64,000 nucleotides of DNA, taken from the NCBI GenBank assembly GCA_028712075.1, contig JAQTQX010000013.1, positions 59,534 through 123,533 of the forward strand. Direction: 5' to 3'. The notes beneath the pieces were generated by a model that saw nothing but the letters and a program-made list of their open reading frames with translations, made no database searches and was not told where the DNA came from. This document shows, in pieces, positions 53,105-62,413 of this stretch; position 1 is the stretch's first letter; each line of letters begins with the position of its first letter. This DNA is from Desulfuromonadaceae bacterium (GTDB taxonomy: Bacteria; Desulfobacterota; Desulfuromonadia; Geobacterales; Pseudopelobacteraceae). A program made the position numbers and the translations under genes.

Positions 53105-54262
53105 ATGCCTCAGAATCGAGTTACCATGCGTAAGATACGAGAGATACTCCGTCTTGCCTGGTCATGCAATCAGACCAGACAATAAATTTCCGACAGTTGC
53201 GGTATCGGCAAGACAACTGTCACCGATACTCTATATCGGGCTTCCGCTGCCGGTCTGTCCTATCCCTTACCAGCCGACCTCGATGATGAACGGCTGGAAC
53301 GCCTTCTCTATCTTCAACATCATCGTGCCATAACCAGTAGGCGGACACCTCCCGACTGGGCATCCCTGCATAACGAACTACTCTCCCACAAGAACCTGAC
53401 GCTGATGCTTCTATGGCAGGAGTATAAGGAACGAGAACCATCCGGTTACCAGTACAGTCAGCTCTGTGATCTGTTCCGTTTTTGGCGGGGCAAACTCGAC
53501 CTGTCCATGCGTCAGGAACATCGTGCTGGTGAGAAGATGTTCGTGGACTATTGTGGTCAGACACTTCCCATTGTTGACTCGACCACCGGAGAAATACGTG
53601 ACGCTCAGGTATTTGTGGCGGTCATGGGTGCCAGCAACTACACCTATGCCGAAACCACATGGAGCCAGTCCCTTGCAGATTGGACTGGTTCACATGTCAG
53701 AACGTTCTCCTACTTCGGAGCAGTCCCTCATTGTATCGTCCCAGATATTCTGCTGTCAGGTGTCACCAAGACCTGTCGATATGAACCGGGCATCAATGCC
53801 ACCTATCAGGAAATGGCAACCCATTACGGCACCGCTGTTATTCCCGCCCGTGTCCGCAAACCACGAGATAAACCCAAAGTCGAAGCCGGTGTCCAGTTTG
53901 TGCAACGGTTCATTCTTGCCGGATTACGACATCACACTTTCTTCAGTCTTGCAGAAGCGAATGCTGCCATCAAAATAATTCGGCGTAACGTAGCGTTGCT
54001 CACGTCGTTCTTCTCCCAACATCAAGAGCTTTTTGAGTGGAAAGAGCCGAAGGCAGGACCAATTGCATTTCCACGTTATTTGGGAAGTTCGGTTGAACAA
54101 TTCTGTGACGAGTTGGTGCGACACTCTGGGGTCTTAATGCTTCCGGGGACACTTTACAACAAAGAGTACGATTGTTTCCGCATTGGATTTGGAAGGAGCA
54201 ATATGGAAGAGTGTTTGACAAAACTGGAGCAGTTTTTAGAAAAGTCCAAAACCTTAAAATAG
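53105..54262 (+). pseudogene. IstA N-terminal part (interrupted by TAA at 53183-53185) fused in frame to an aminotransferase C-terminus
   Basis: MPQNRVTMRKIREILRLAWSCNQTRQ*ISDSCGIGKTTVTDTLYRASAAGLSYPLP..MFVDYCGQTLPIVDSTTGEIRDAQVFVAVMGASNYTYAETTWSQ..TFFSLAEANAAI| then KIIRRNVALLTSFFSQHQELFEWKEPKAGPIAFPRY..FCDELVRHSGVLMLPGTLY..FRIGFGRSNMEECLTKLEQFL. Confidence 0.75.
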
Positions 54263-55725: not shown

Positions 55726-56478
55726 ATGAAAGCATTATCCTTCACAACAATAATGGTTACAGCAGTATCACTGTTGGCGCTTAGCGGATCTGTGCACGCA
55801 TCAAAAACGGATAACCGCATCGAATCATCGGCTAAACAGTCATATGTGTTCAAGACCTACCTTAAAACTGATGACATCAAAATCAAGTCTAGCGACGGCG
55901 TTGTCACCTTGACGGGGAGTGTCTCCGAAGACTCCCACAAAACATTGGCTCAGGAGACAGTGATGGGCTTACCTGGGGTCAAGAAAGTAAATAACTTGCT
56001 TGAAGTTAAAGGTGAACAGTCCACCGCAACCTCCGATGCGTGGCTAACTTCAAAAGTAAAAACCATACTTCTGTTTCATCGGAACGTGAGCACCATGACC
56101 GAGGTTGACACCAAAGAGGGCATAGTAACCCTGCATGGTAATGCTGGCAGTCTGGCTGAGAAGGATTTGACAACCGAATACGTCAAGGATGTCGAAGGGG
56201 TAAAAGGCGTAACGAATGAAATGACCGTGACAAAAACAGTGAAAAAAACGCGAACGGCAGGAGAAAAAATAGATGACGCTTCCATAACTGCCCAGGTCAA
56301 AATGAGTTTGCTCTATCATCGCTCAACCAGTGCCCTCAATACTTCGGTCACCACAAAGAATGGTATCGTTACATTGAGCGGCAAGGCCAGTAATGCAGCC
56401 GAATTGAAACTGACTTCCAAATACGCCAACGACGTTAACGGCGTAAAAGACGTGAAAAACCGGATGGTAATTGAGTAG
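55726..56478 (+). CDS. Exported BON-domain protein (three BON repeats)
   Basis: Signal peptide; three repeats of the type DGVVTLTGSVSEDSHKTLAQETVMGLPGVKKVNNLLEV. Confidence 0.88.
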   Translation: MKALSFTTIMVTAVSLLALSGSVHASKTDNRIESSAKQSYVFKTYLKTDDIKIKSSDGVVTLTGSVSEDSHKTLAQETVMGLPGVKKVNNLLEVKGEQSTATSDAWLTSKVKTILLFHRNVSTMTEVDTKEGIVTLHGNAGSLAEKDLTTEYVKDVEGVKGVTNEMTVTKTVKKTRTAGEKIDDASITAQVKMSLLYHRSTSALNTSVTTKNGIVTLSGKASNAAELKLTSKYANDVNGVKDVKNRMVIE

Positions 56479-57259: not shown

Positions 57260-57856
57260 GTGATGATAAGAATGCAAAATCAAAGTGTAAAAAACAATTT
57301 TCCAGTCGTATGTGTTGGCGGTTCAGCCGGCGGTCTCGATGCCTATACACGGTTATTACAACATCTTCCTGCAGATCTGGATGTTGCCGTCGTCATTGTT
57401 AACCATTTGAGAACCGTAGCCACCATGCTACATGAGATTCTTCCAAACTACTCCAAGATGCCGGTTGAACTTATCACGCAACAATTAGTCATCCTACCCA
57501 ATCACGTGTTCATCATTCCAGAAAAGAGAGATTTGCACATTCTTAACGGAGAGTTCCGTCTCAAACCGATTTCAAAGCCTAGAGGATGGCCCGACGTGAT
57601 AACGGTTTTTCTGCGTTCTCTCACCAAGCACTGGGATGGCAAAATTATCGCAGTGATCGTTTCCGGCTATGACGGTGATGGGGCCGAAGCGCTATGTGGC
57701 ATAAAAGATGTGGGTGGTATTACCATAGCACAGAAACTCAATACAGCCGGACAGCCTGATATGCCGGAGAGCGCAATTGAAAGTGGTTGCATCGATTATG
57801 TTCTTTCACCAGAGGATATCGCCCAAGAAATTATTAGGATTACACAGACGGTTTGA
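57260..57856 (+). CDS. Stand-alone CheB-type methylesterase domain protein
   Basis: VCVGGSAGGLDAYTRLLQHLPADLDVAVVIVNHL..DGDGAEALCGIKDVGGITIAQ; no receiver domain. Confidence 0.87.
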   Translation: MMIRMQNQSVKNNFPVVCVGGSAGGLDAYTRLLQHLPADLDVAVVIVNHLRTVATMLHEILPNYSKMPVELITQQLVILPNHVFIIPEKRDLHILNGEFRLKPISKPRGWPDVITVFLRSLTKHWDGKIIAVIVSGYDGDGAEALCGIKDVGGITIAQKLNTAGQPDMPESAIESGCIDYVLSPEDIAQEIIRITQTV

Positions 57857-57955: not shown

Positions 57956-58207
57956 AACGTATTGTGGGCCCAGCACAATCCCCAGCCAGCTTGGGAATTT
58001 CGAAAATTATATCGTATTAATGGAAATAGGCAACTTTCAAATCCTGACAAATTATATGGTCTCATGCAGCACGCCATAAACAGTCACAAACATTGACTGA
58101 TTTTGCAGTGATCGACGTACTTGCCGCCAAAGAAAAGCTATTTCATGCAGTGTGTTACATCTTGCCCAGGCATTAAGGCCAGTGACGGGTTAGCAGGAGT
58201 CATTCCA

Positions 58208-58645
58208 ATGTCAAAACCGATAAATGACCTGAGTCTTGAAGCGATACAAAGAGCCCTGTCACATTATGCCGGGGACGCCCCCGATGCGAGAGCGTTTGCA
58301 GAAGTCACCATAGGCACATGGCAACAGATGGCCGCCCAACTTATGCCGGTGATCGGCACGGGTGGGGTCAATGTCCTCTTTAACCGTTCGCTGCACCTGA
58401 CGTGCATTGCCTTCCCTTGGCTTACAATGCTCGGAGACAAAAGGGTCAACACAGCTCTGCTTGCAAGCGTCAAGGCGCGCCTTGCGGGCCGAGATACGGA
58501 TGAAGCAATACATGCGAGCTGTACCCTGCTGGTAACCTTTATCGAGCAACTGAAAACCTTGATTGGGGAATCATTGACAGAGCGCCTGTTAGATCCCATA
58601 TGGGTTCCCACGTCACCAGTGACAAAACAGGAGAACACATCATGA
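58208..58645 (+). CDS. Hypothetical, predicted helical protein; first gene of KaiC-like module
   Basis: MSKPINDLSLEAIQRALSHYAGDAPDARAFAEVTIGTWQQMAAQLMPVIG...; stop overlaps next ATG (ATGA). Confidence 0.65.
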   Translation: MSKPINDLSLEAIQRALSHYAGDAPDARAFAEVTIGTWQQMAAQLMPVIGTGGVNVLFNRSLHLTCIAFPWLTMLGDKRVNTALLASVKARLAGRDTDEAIHASCTLLVTFIEQLKTLIGESLTERLLDPIWVPTSPVTKQENTS

Positions 58646-60120
58646 GCAAAAAGGTGATTATACAGCGACTTGCCACCGGCGTGCCGGGACTAGATGAGAT
58701 TCTGAGCGGCGGACTGCCGGAATATTCATTCAACCTCATTGTTGGGTCTCCGGGCTGCGGCAAAACGACGCTGGCACATCAGATAATGTTCTCCCTGGCC
58801 ACCCGGGAGCGGCCGGCAGTGTTCTTCACCGTACTTGGGGAACCTCCGTTGAAGATGCTGCGCTATCAGCAGCAGTTCTCATTCTTTGACTTCAACAAGT
58901 TCAATGACTCAATCCGCTTCGTTAATCTGAGCAACGACTTCGCAACGAGCAATTTTGACCAGGTACTGGCTCGCATCACGCAAGAGGTTGAGTCTTCCTC
59001 ACCGGCGCTGGTTTTCGTCGACTCGTTCCGTTCGGTCATGCTGGAGGCACTCCAGCAACCCAACGGCACGCTCAGTCAGCAACAGTTCATTCAACAGCTC
59101 GGAATGCTGATGAGCTGCTGGCAGGCAACCACCTTCCTGATCGGAGAATATCCGTCAACCAGAGATCTACATCCTGTCTTCACTGTAGCAGACGGGCTGC
59201 TGTCGCTCGAACAAAACGTCCAACGGAATTCGATGGTGCGCAAGATGCAAGTTCTAAAAATGCGTGGTCAGGCGACCCGTCCGGGAATGCATACATTCCG
59301 CATTACCAGTGACGGAATTGAAGTCTTTCCGGCGGCGCTCATTCACGGTGATAAAAGTAATGAGCCGACTACTTCCGGGGCATTGCGAGGCAAAGTCCGT
59401 CTAACCACTGGCGTACCACGCCTCGACGAAATGCTGGGCGGCGGATTGCCGTCCGGTTATTCGCTGCTGGTCGCGGGGCCGTCCGGATCGGGCAAGACCA
59501 TACTAGCCACGGCTTTCCTGGCCGAGGGTGTGCGCCGGGGCGAACCGGGCGTAATTGTCGCCTTTGAGCAGACACCAAGTCAGTCCTGGATCCGCACGCT
59601 CGACGATATGGTTTGCGCCGGGCAAATAGGCTTGATCAATACCCGTTCCCTGGATCTTTCGATCGACGAGATCGTGCTGCATCTGGTTGAGCTCATCCAT
59701 AAAATGAAAGCGACTCGGGTGGTGATCGACTCTCTGTCCGGGTTTGAACTGGCAGTTGCTCCAACCTTCCGCGAGGACTTTCGCGAATCGCTGTTTCGCA
59801 TGTTCGCCGTACTATCTGGCCTCGGCGTGACGGTGCTTATGACGTCGGAACTTGAAGACCGCTATATCGACCTAAGGTTCAGCCCCTATGGATCAGCGTT
59901 TCTCACAGATGCGATCATTGTTCAACGCTACATTGAGGTGGAGAGCCGCTTACAGCGAGTCATGGCTGTAGTTAAAGTGCGCGCAAGCGTCCACAGCACT
60001 GAGATACGACGTTTCGAAATAACCGACGACGGTATTGTAATCGGTGACCCGGTGCTCGATTTTGAGGGAATTCTTGGTGGGCAGCCGACGCGGACAAAAC
60101 AGTCCGATAAGATTGATTGA
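58642..60120 (+). CDS. KaiC-like double RecA-domain ATPase
   Basis: Two KaiC-type domains: TGVPGLDEILSGGLPEYSFNLIVGSPGCGKTTLAHQ and TGVPRLDEMLGGGLPSGYSLLVAGPSGSGKTILATAF; C-terminus FEGILGGQPTR. Confidence 0.9.
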   Translation: MSKKVIIQRLATGVPGLDEILSGGLPEYSFNLIVGSPGCGKTTLAHQIMFSLATRERPAVFFTVLGEPPLKMLRYQQQFSFFDFNKFNDSIRFVNLSNDFATSNFDQVLARITQEVESSSPALVFVDSFRSVMLEALQQPNGTLSQQQFIQQLGMLMSCWQATTFLIGEYPSTRDLHPVFTVADGLLSLEQNVQRNSMVRKMQVLKMRGQATRPGMHTFRITSDGIEVFPAALIHGDKSNEPTTSGALRGKVRLTTGVPRLDEMLGGGLPSGYSLLVAGPSGSGKTILATAFLAEGVRRGEPGVIVAFEQTPSQSWIRTLDDMVCAGQIGLINTRSLDLSIDEIVLHLVELIHKMKATRVVIDSLSGFELAVAPTFREDFRESLFRMFAVLSGLGVTVLMTSELEDRYIDLRFSPYGSAFLTDAIIVQRYIEVESRLQRVMAVVKVRASVHSTEIRRFEITDDGIVIGDPVLDFEGILGGQPTRTKQSDKID

Positions 60121-60128
60121 GGTATGTG

Positions 60129-62018
60129 ATGACTAAGAGAGTAAGCACCCACAGGAATGACGGAAAGGGATCGACTGGTGACGAAAATGGAAGTGCCCAT
60201 TCTGACCTCTGCTGCCCTGTAAGTACTATAGCAGATAGTGAAATAGTGGCCCTTACTGGCGAACAGACCATCCTTAACCGTGAAGATGATGCCAACCTGC
60301 GCAAACAGGCCGCAGACTTGCGGCAAGGTACTGCTGAACTCCGCCTGGAAGCCGCCGACTTGCGGCAAGAATCCGCTGAACTACGCCAAAATACCGCCGA
60401 CATGCGCGATGTCACCGCTGACCAACGTGACGATATCGCAGATTTGCGCCAAAATACCGCTGACCAGCGTGAAGAAATCGCCGACCTGCGAGAAGAGGCC
60501 GCCGACTATCATCAAGATACCGCTGAAATGCGCGAAAATACCGCTGATCAGCGTGATATGGCCGCTGACAGCCGAGAAAAAGCCCTGCACGACCAAACAG
60601 GATCCGCGAGAGTCAAAGCCATTCAAAACGCGATCACCGAGGAGCATTTGCGCGAAGCGAACGAGAACCTGGTCGTCGCGACAGTCCGAGCCCAGACGAT
60701 GGCAGAAACCGCCGTGCTGGCCACCGCACAGATGTCCTATATGGCCGAGCACGACATTCTCACTGGTTTGCCGAACCGCGCACTGTTGACCGATCGGCTA
60801 AACCAGTCGATCGCGCTCGCACAACGTCATAGAAAGAAGTTTGCCCTGCTGTATATTGATCTCGACCACTTCAAACACATCAATGATTCCCTCGGGCATG
60901 AGGTCGGCGACAAGTTGTTGCAGTCAGTCGCAAAGCGCCTGCAAACGTGCGTCCGTCTCACGGATACCGTCAGCCGGCAGGGGGGTGATGAATTCGTGGT
61001 GCTGTTGGGTGAAGTCAAAGATGTACAAGACGCAACCACGTCTGCCAAAAAACTGTTAGAAGCAATGGCCAGTCCACACCTCATCAATGAGCATCGACTG
61101 CATGTCAACCTGAGTATTGGCATCAGTCTCTACCCAGACGATGGTAAGGATATCCATACGGTTATCAGGAATGCCGACACCGCGATGTATTATGCAAAGA
61201 AAAACGGGCGCAATTGCTTCCATAGGTTTACATCGGACATGAATGTAAGTGCGGTCGCCCGCCAATCCATCGAGGTAGCGTTACACCATGCGCTTGAGCA
61301 GCACAAATTCGTGCTGCATTACCAGCCTAAAGTGAATCTCAAAACCGGTACCATTTCCGGTGCAGAGGCTCTGGTCCGCCTGCAACAATCTGATAACCGT
61401 CTCGTCAGCCCCGCAAAGTTTGTGAATATTGCCGAGGAGTGCGGACTGATAGTGCCAATAGGCAAATGGGTACTTCATGAAGCCTGTCGTCAGACTCAAG
61501 CATGGTTGACTTCAGGACTCGGCATTCGCCAGATTGCGGTCAATGTTTCGGCCCGGGAATTGCGCAACGATTTTTTTGAAGGTGTTCGGTCTATTCTCAA
61601 TGACACAGGTCTTGACCCGTGCCGTCTCGAACTGGAGCTGACTGAAAGCGGTATGATGCGGGACACGGAAAAAACGTTGGAGATTTTGTACGCACTCAAA
61701 CAGCTCGGCGTGCAGATAGCAGTTGACGACTTTGGAACCGGATATTCCAGCCTAAGTTATCTTCGTCGCTTTCCGATTGATACGCTCAAAATTGACCAGA
61801 CTTTTGTGCAGGACATTGGCGGAGAAGCAGGTGAGACCATCGTCAGTGCCGTCATTGCCATGGGAACGAGCCTCAAGCAACGGGTCGTAGCCGAAGGCAT
61901 AGAAACGAAACAGCAGCTTGATTTTCTGAAATCTCGTCACTGCGACGAAGGACAGGGCTATTACTTCGGTCGACCCATGTCAGCCGATGAATTCGCGACG
62001 TTGCTGGCAGCCAAGTAA
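60129..62018 (+). CDS. GGDEF-EAL protein with N-terminal heptad-repeat region
   Basis: GGDEF motif in RQGGDEFVVLLGEV, EAL motif in GAEALVRL, DDFGTGYSSLSYL; heptads 60294-60587. Confidence 0.92.
   Translation: MTKRVSTHRNDGKGSTGDENGSAHSDLCCPVSTIADSEIVALTGEQTILNREDDANLRKQAADLRQGTAELRLEAADLRQESAELRQNTADMRDVTADQRDDIADLRQNTADQREEIADLREEAADYHQDTAEMRENTADQRDMAADSREKALHDQTGSARVKAIQNAITEEHLREANENLVVATVRAQTMAETAVLATAQMSYMAEHDILTGLPNRALLTDRLNQSIALAQRHRKKFALLYIDLDHFKHINDSLGHEVGDKLLQSVAKRLQTCVRLTDTVSRQGGDEFVVLLGEVKDVQDATTSAKKLLEAMASPHLINEHRLHVNLSIGISLYPDDGKDIHTVIRNADTAMYYAKKNGRNCFHRFTSDMNVSAVARQSIEVALHHALEQHKFVLHYQPKVNLKTGTISGAEALVRLQQSDNRLVSPAKFVNIAEECGLIVPIGKWVLHEACRQTQAWLTSGLGIRQIAVNVSARELRNDFFEGVRSILNDTGLDPCRLELELTESGMMRDTEKTLEILYALKQLGVQIAVDDFGTGYSSLSYLRRFPIDTLKIDQTFVQDIGGEAGETIVSAVIAMGTSLKQRVVAEGIETKQQLDFLKSRHCDEGQGYYFGRPMSADEFATLLAAK
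60294..60587 (+). repeat. 14 tandem 21-bp units encoding heptads of type DxRxxxA
   Basis: NLRKQAA DLRQGTA ELRLEAA DLRQESA ELRQNTA DMRDVTA DQRDDIA DLRQNTA DQREEIA DLREEAA DYHQDTA EMRENTA DQRDMAA DSREKAL. Confidence 0.9.
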
Positions 62019-62413
62019 AAACTTTAAAAACTTTACCAACCACTCCAGTTTTGCCAAGGCCGGTGACTGAGGTTAGACGAGGGTAGGATGCGAATGTGCC
62101 ATGTTATCACAATCAGTCCTCTAATCACGCAAATGGAATAAAAAGCAATAGGGTATGCGAAATAAATTATATTACTGCTTGATTGTATTTAATTATTGAA
62201 GTGGTACAGTTTATTTTCAATGATATTTATTTCTGTTTAATAATTGTTGCCTTTCAGTAAACACCAGCTCTGCCAGTGAAACTTGAAAAGGCTACGCCGT
62301 TCCGGCGACACTTTTTCCTGAGGAAAGCCCCCAAGGGTAGCTATTGATAAATAACAGGTGGTAAAGTCATCTCAAAAACGTCATTGTTTTTAACATTACC
62401 TTCAGGGGGGTAT

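Follow-up and report, generated by a model that had tools for sequence, protein, structure and literature searches.

What KaiC homologues do in bacteria without a clock is an open question, and it bears on the subfamily of the double-domain KaiC-type ATPase that is encoded between a small helical protein and a GGDEF-EAL protein in the 64,000-nucleotide stretch of DNA analysed here (the window). The adjacency of KaiC to GGDEF/EAL proteins and to kinases was already published in 2011, in a study that defined a third ('black') group of KaiCs, which have at most one phosphosite ('AF' types among them) and lie near REC, HK or GGDEF/EAL genes, and that termed the gene context of this group less conserved (de Luca et al., 2011; PMC3164672). 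The comparisons below lead to a reading that we hold with about as much confidence as doubt, namely that a widespread, undescribed system exists in which a phosphosite-less KaiC ring and an obligate small partner of a new family would form one input unit, plugging into c-di-GMP enzymes or histidine kinases via one conserved docking helix, with the outputs exchanged in evolution and the input kept constant. If this is true, ATP state is linked directly to c-di-GMP and two-component signaling, and a natural plug-in helix is common to c-di-GMP enzymes and kinases.

Organization of the Locus

The first-pass annotation of the window had described three tightly packed reading frames, joined by an ATGA overlap and a gap of a few bases, and all of them are present as described (Table 1). 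The ATGA is shared by the small gene and the KaiC gene, with an AGGAG (58629-58633) eight bases before the KaiC start codon, and the gap between the KaiC stop codon and the GGDEF-EAL gene is 8 bases long. The assigned identities also hold, as the Pfam matches of the ATPase (two PF06745 domains) and of the GGDEF-EAL protein (PF00990 and PF00563) lie far above their cut-offs. Chance juxtaposition is excluded because the arrangement is conserved across 80 loci, and the sequence supports the reading of the three genes as one operon-like unit. A promoter and terminator scan gave counts close to those of shuffles; one terminator-like stem (62295-62307) is the only one suitably placed, the transcript ends being predictions.

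Table 1. Features of the small protein-KaiC-output locus, in positions of the window.
Feature	Position	Strand	Remarks
Small partner gene	58208..58645	+	145 aa, all-helical, undescribed family; ATG at 58208, TGA at 58643-58645; AGGAG at 58195-58199
Double-domain KaiC-type ATPase	58642..60120	+	492 aa; PF06745 7.2e-77; ATG at 58642, TGA at 60118-60120
Output enzyme GGDEF-EAL	60129..62018	+	629 aa; PF00990 5.1e-54, PF00563 1.2e-71; ATG at 60129; no recognized sensor domain
Heptad-repeat coiled coil, variable	60288..60578	+	N-terminus of output enzyme; 'TADLRQx' units
Shared output helix	60597..60728	+	aa 157-200, includes EEHLREANENLVVATVRAQTMAET; directly precedes GGDEF; candidate segment for docking/transmission
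GGDEF (diguanylate cyclase) domain	60744..61214	+	Residues 206-362; GGDEF motif and RLTD I-site
EAL (phosphodiesterase) domain	61278..61976	+	Residues 384-616; catalytic motifs present, residues conserved in alignment A4

A Near-Obligate Pair of a Small Helical Protein and KaiC

Eighty relatives were gathered by KaiC similarity alone, and their sources include Desulfuromonadales-type bacteria, Nitrospirae, Betaproteobacteria, Acidobacteria, and Gammaproteobacteria such as Pseudomonas. In at least 78 of these loci (tblastn), KaiC is immediately preceded by the gene of the small protein; of the two loci without an intact upstream gene, one (L049) holds remnants in broken frames and the other (L050) lies on a contig that begins just before KaiC. 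The end of the small gene, with its stop codon, reaches 4 bases into KaiC in 36 loci and 8 bases in 27, and the recurrence of these overlaps suggests that translational coupling of the two genes is under selection.

Co-occurrence was also surveyed genome by genome. Among 277 genomes of the window's class, the small protein occurs in 11 and this KaiC in the same 11, adjacent each time (11/11 vs. 0/266 genomes; Fisher p 7e-20), and the GGDEF-EAL gene is adjacent as well in all ten other module-bearing genomes. A second order of 349 genomes gave 20/20 vs. 1/329 (Fisher p 1e-31), both p-values overstating independence because the genomes are related. In this order, every one of the 20 KaiCs with an identity of 51% or more adjoins the small protein, two KaiCs of 31-33% identity have no small protein beside them, and the single unpaired small protein sits at a contig end. 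In the genus of one Pseudomonas locus (L029), 46 of 250 genomes have the small protein, and the same pair is found on Caballeronia and Paracoccus plasmids, annotated as 'hypothetical protein' and 'ATPase domain-containing protein.' The first-pass annotation had named a co-occurrence scan beforehand as a test of its proposal; strain-specific juxtaposition is ruled out by the 80 loci and the two surveys, and the partnership that it proposed for the small protein is borne out by the conservation upstream of KaiC and by the co-occurrence in both surveys. The small protein and this phosphosite-less KaiC subfamily thus form an almost obligate inherited pair, encoded by overlapping genes, in a module that is accessory, since its presence in the class is sporadic (11/277 genomes).

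Two decaying copies were seen: in L094 (from G223), a deletion fuses the small gene to the C-terminal part of KaiC, and in L102 (from G443), the small gene is interrupted by about 2.4 kb of inserted DNA.

An alignment of the small protein (73 rows) has the conserved motifs 'IIGxxGFxxLYxRS' and 'LIGExLTxRxLxxAW,' and its AlphaFold2 model is confident and all-helical (pLDDT 89, pTM 0.82), with predicted helices at residues 5-21, 27-68, 81-93, 97-119, and 121-132. No PDB fold matched the model at E ≤ 0.001 (best 2.2), no PDB sequence matched convincingly, and the 73 members lend support to no family of Pfam or NCBIfam, so that the protein, which had been called uncharacterized, is indeed a member of an undescribed family as far as the libraries searched go (Pfam, NCBIfam, PHROG, and PDB). 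The reading as a phage or defense gene was rejected for lack of matches in PHROG and PADLOC, and that as a KaiA-like protein because Pfam, sequence and fold searches gave it no support. Weak matches (DIMCO_N, 0.097; VMAP-M2, best 0.026, in 6/73 members) were judged to be chance, and an internal duplication is not claimed, as comparing one half with the other in hhalign yielded a probability of 19% over 27 columns.

Interchangeable Output Enzymes

In the window's output enzyme, the GGDEF, RxxD I-site, EAL and DDFG motifs are intact and conserved, as would be required of a bifunctional c-di-GMP enzyme. Across the loci, the enzyme accompanying the small-KaiC pair varies in catalytic type and can be a GGDEF-EAL protein, a GGDEF protein alone, a HisKA kinase, a kinase-REC hybrid, a GGDEF-kinase(-receiver) fusion or an HWE kinase. 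Its gene follows KaiC or sometimes lies just before the small gene, and in several loci a kinase is followed by a GGDEF-EAL protein; GGDEF is part of almost every output in the clade closest to the window, for the most part together with EAL. The description of the locus as a three-gene c-di-GMP module can therefore be kept in part. It is apt for the window with its GGDEF-EAL protein, whereas elsewhere the output may be a histidine kinase, a hybrid kinase or a GGDEF-kinase; because the same pair accompanies all of these, the conserved core is small protein plus KaiC and the third gene is interchangeable. In the Nitrosospira copies, L082 (4942-7370) and the same place in L083, the usual outputs are replaced by an upstream HisKA_3 kinase and a gene resembling a response regulator, which lack the helix described next.

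What the output enzymes have in common is a helix of about 44 residues, ending in 'LREANExLVxATxxAQxxxE,' directly before the first catalytic domain, and the representatives adjoining KaiC that were examined in a Pfam scan have no PAS, GAF or other recognizable sensor domain. This shared pre-catalytic helix, which is absent from the first-pass annotation, is the best clue to the coupling of KaiC to its outputs.

Proposed Mechanism

Since the pair is constant, the enzymes are interchangeable and sensor-less, and the pre-catalytic helix is constant, the reading that we favor by a modest degree is that the three genes encode an ATP-dependent switch, in which KaiC and its small partner are the input and control sensor-less outputs via the shared helix. 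KaiC would form a hexameric ring that binds and hydrolyzes ATP, and the small protein would bind it as an input component, either a sensor or a nucleotide-exchange or assembly factor, taking the job done elsewhere by KaiA and KaiB. The nucleotide state of this complex may then be passed on to the output enzyme through contacts at the shared helix and its coiled coil, the input unit docking on or twisting the pre-catalytic helix. Such contact would shift the alignment of the dimer and hence how c-di-GMP synthesis is balanced against its breakdown in the window's enzyme, or, in other species, how active the kinase is, so that the ATPase would gate c-di-GMP, as the first-pass annotation had envisaged. 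The system would be an ATP/ADP- or stress-state switch and not a phosphorylation clock. Here we infer the binding, the direction of control and the signal.

A working precedent by analogy for input from an NTPase plus partner into a diguanylate cyclase is found in Escherichia coli, where the GTPase RdcA, together with a partner (RdcB), docks at the N-terminal end of DgcE and controls this enzyme by nucleotide state (PMC6510439). As may be the case here, an NTPase and a partner of unknown family provide direct nucleotide-dependent input to the N-terminus of the cyclase; RdcA differs in being a dynamin-like GTPase that docks on a MASE1 membrane domain, and no homology is claimed.

Control could also run in reverse, with the output-type enzyme, or its c-di-GMP or phosphate, controlling a KaiC ring that acts on another target. 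Gene clustering gives no direction, and published work deals with cyclic-di-GMP effects on the rhythm of cyanobacteria (PMC13001216). We nevertheless consider this unlikely, as the checked enzymes are sensor-less, differ in catalytic type and have in common only the pre-catalytic helix, the usual place of input, and as products as different as c-di-GMP and phosphoryl groups would be unlikely to share a single conserved KaiC as their target.

Specificity of the Shared Helix

The helix is present in 73/80 loci, and its pattern has 61 matches in the 1.13 Mb of these loci, 53 in the adjacent output gene and 8 in a GGDEF-EAL gene elsewhere in that cluster. The rows of the helix alignment (A3) were chosen by the pattern 'ANxxL[VI]xA,' and those letters are invariant there by construction; a profile built only from GGDEF proteins detects the kinases (to 3e-19), a kinase-built profile detects the GGDEF proteins, and this cross-detection also recovered genes without the pattern. 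No helix-bearing output gene was found beside KaiC in L028, L075, and L080, and L025 has a GGDEF protein without the helix.

The segment lies within a long predicted helix adjoining heptad repeats and could thus be a generic signaling-helix or coiled-coil dimerization element in enzymes linked to KaiC by co-regulation rather than contact. One unrelated protein does bear it, namely a PAS/GAF-like GGDEF-EAL protein (L115 3493-7233, from G456) in a genome in which no small-KaiC pair was detected; it is possibly an orphan output or the ancestor of the helix segment. Yet genomes typically hold many kinases and diguanylate cyclases, and the helix was found in only 19/349 genomes, the module being present in 17 of these (Fisher p 3e-23); in the other module-less genome, the match lies where a 5.8-kb contig ends. 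There is one match in the window's own genome, and none in unrelated signaling reading frames of the 80 loci. A generic element appears unlikely, slightly more so than reverse control, and the helical stretch of the signaling enzyme probably receives the KaiC-side signal.

In the AlphaFold2 model of the window's output, the shared segment is inside one long helix (138-207) that enters GGDEF. The coiled coil upstream of it, a modeled helix at 46-128 with tandem repeats of periods 21 and 42, is a fast-changing spacer: its 'TADLRQx' heptads are repetitive at the DNA level and differ widely in number between species, being very long in L020.

A KaiC-Family ATPase Without Clock Features

Both P-loops of the window's KaiC are intact (Walker A motifs GSPGCGKTT and GPSGSGKT), and the Walker motifs of both domains are conserved in relatives; on these residues, the protein is expected to bind and probably to hydrolyze ATP. 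Each domain retains one of its two adjacent catalytic glutamates, invariantly: Glu67, the second, in CI and Glu309, the first, in CII. Hydrolysis in CI is uncertain because its first glutamate is replaced by Gly66. The two PF06745 domains place the protein in the KaiC ATPase family, and its scores against the NCBIfam circadian-KaiC models are far under the cut-offs (146 vs. 546 bits and 235 vs. 408 bits), which sets it apart from the clock KaiCs. In an alignment to solved KaiC structures, the clock residues S431/T432 correspond to A419-F420, and Ala-Phe occupies these sites in 79/81 KaiC sequences (AY and AI in the remaining two), which makes phosphorylation-based timing unlikely. The first-pass annotation saw no KaiA or KaiB in the window, and this extends to the whole genome, where the best scores are 11.7 bits for KaiA (PF07688; cut-off 22.2) and 17.2 bits for KaiB (cut-off 27, which 1/14 control genomes exceeded).

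A residual timer, i.e., an hourglass timed by ATP hydrolysis rather than phosphorylation with the small protein replacing KaiA and KaiB, would be in keeping with a KaiC fold with two ATPase domains and with the KaiA-independent hourglass timer known from divergent KaiBC (PMC11372060), and it is the least probable of the alternatives, as both phosphosites are missing in nearly all members and neither KaiB nor KaiA is in the genome.

Relation to Known KaiC Systems

The window's system resembles the cyanobacterial KaiABC clock in the KaiC fold, in having partner proteins with KaiC and, in some loci, in output through a kinase. It differs in lacking the S431/T432 phosphosites, a kaiB in the genome, and a kaiA or KaiA-like small partner, and in having outputs that include c-di-GMP enzymes.

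By its zero phosphosites and nearby signaling gene, the window's KaiC falls into the third group of de Luca et al. (2011), an assignment by that definition and not by a tree. Like that group, it is double-domain and phosphosite-less, has no kaiB, and belongs to a subfamily with GGDEF/EAL or histidine kinase neighbors; unlike the group as described in the text of that paper, it has a small partner and a shared helix that unify different outputs. KaiC homologues of environmental Pseudomonas have roles in stress resistance and biofilm, with nothing that points to a clock (Terrettaz et al., 2023, as cited in PMC11832031 and PMC11372060), and are likewise KaiC-like proteins without a clock, as far as those citing papers report, though their subfamily may differ from the window's; some Pseudomonas loci do carry the small-KaiC-kinase form (L027, L029, and L030). 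In the open literature searched, which does not include the 2023 Pseudomonas KaiC paper, no description of the small family or the shared helix was found, and the novelty of the small partner is not certain. This KaiC subfamily now has a defined partner, defined outputs and a specific 44-residue segment for testing control, and its carriers include the culturable genera Pseudomonas, Nitrosospira, and Duganella.

Genomic Neighborhood and Mobility

Horizontal transfer of the module is likely, judging from its G+C content (50-56% vs. 42-47% in most flanking DNA), its patchy distribution within the window's genus, and a closer KaiC match outside the class, the window's KaiC being 82% identical to that of a Nitrospirae MAG and 75% to one in its own class.

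The solo CheB reported beside the module is confirmed as a CheB methylesterase domain (4e-43) just upstream (57260-57856; 198 aa, GTG start), with no receiver domain. Farther upstream, a 285-aa reading frame (53405-54262) weakly resembles an integrase core (23.1 bits vs. a cut-off of 32.6), and a secreted-looking protein with three BON domains is encoded at 55726-56478.
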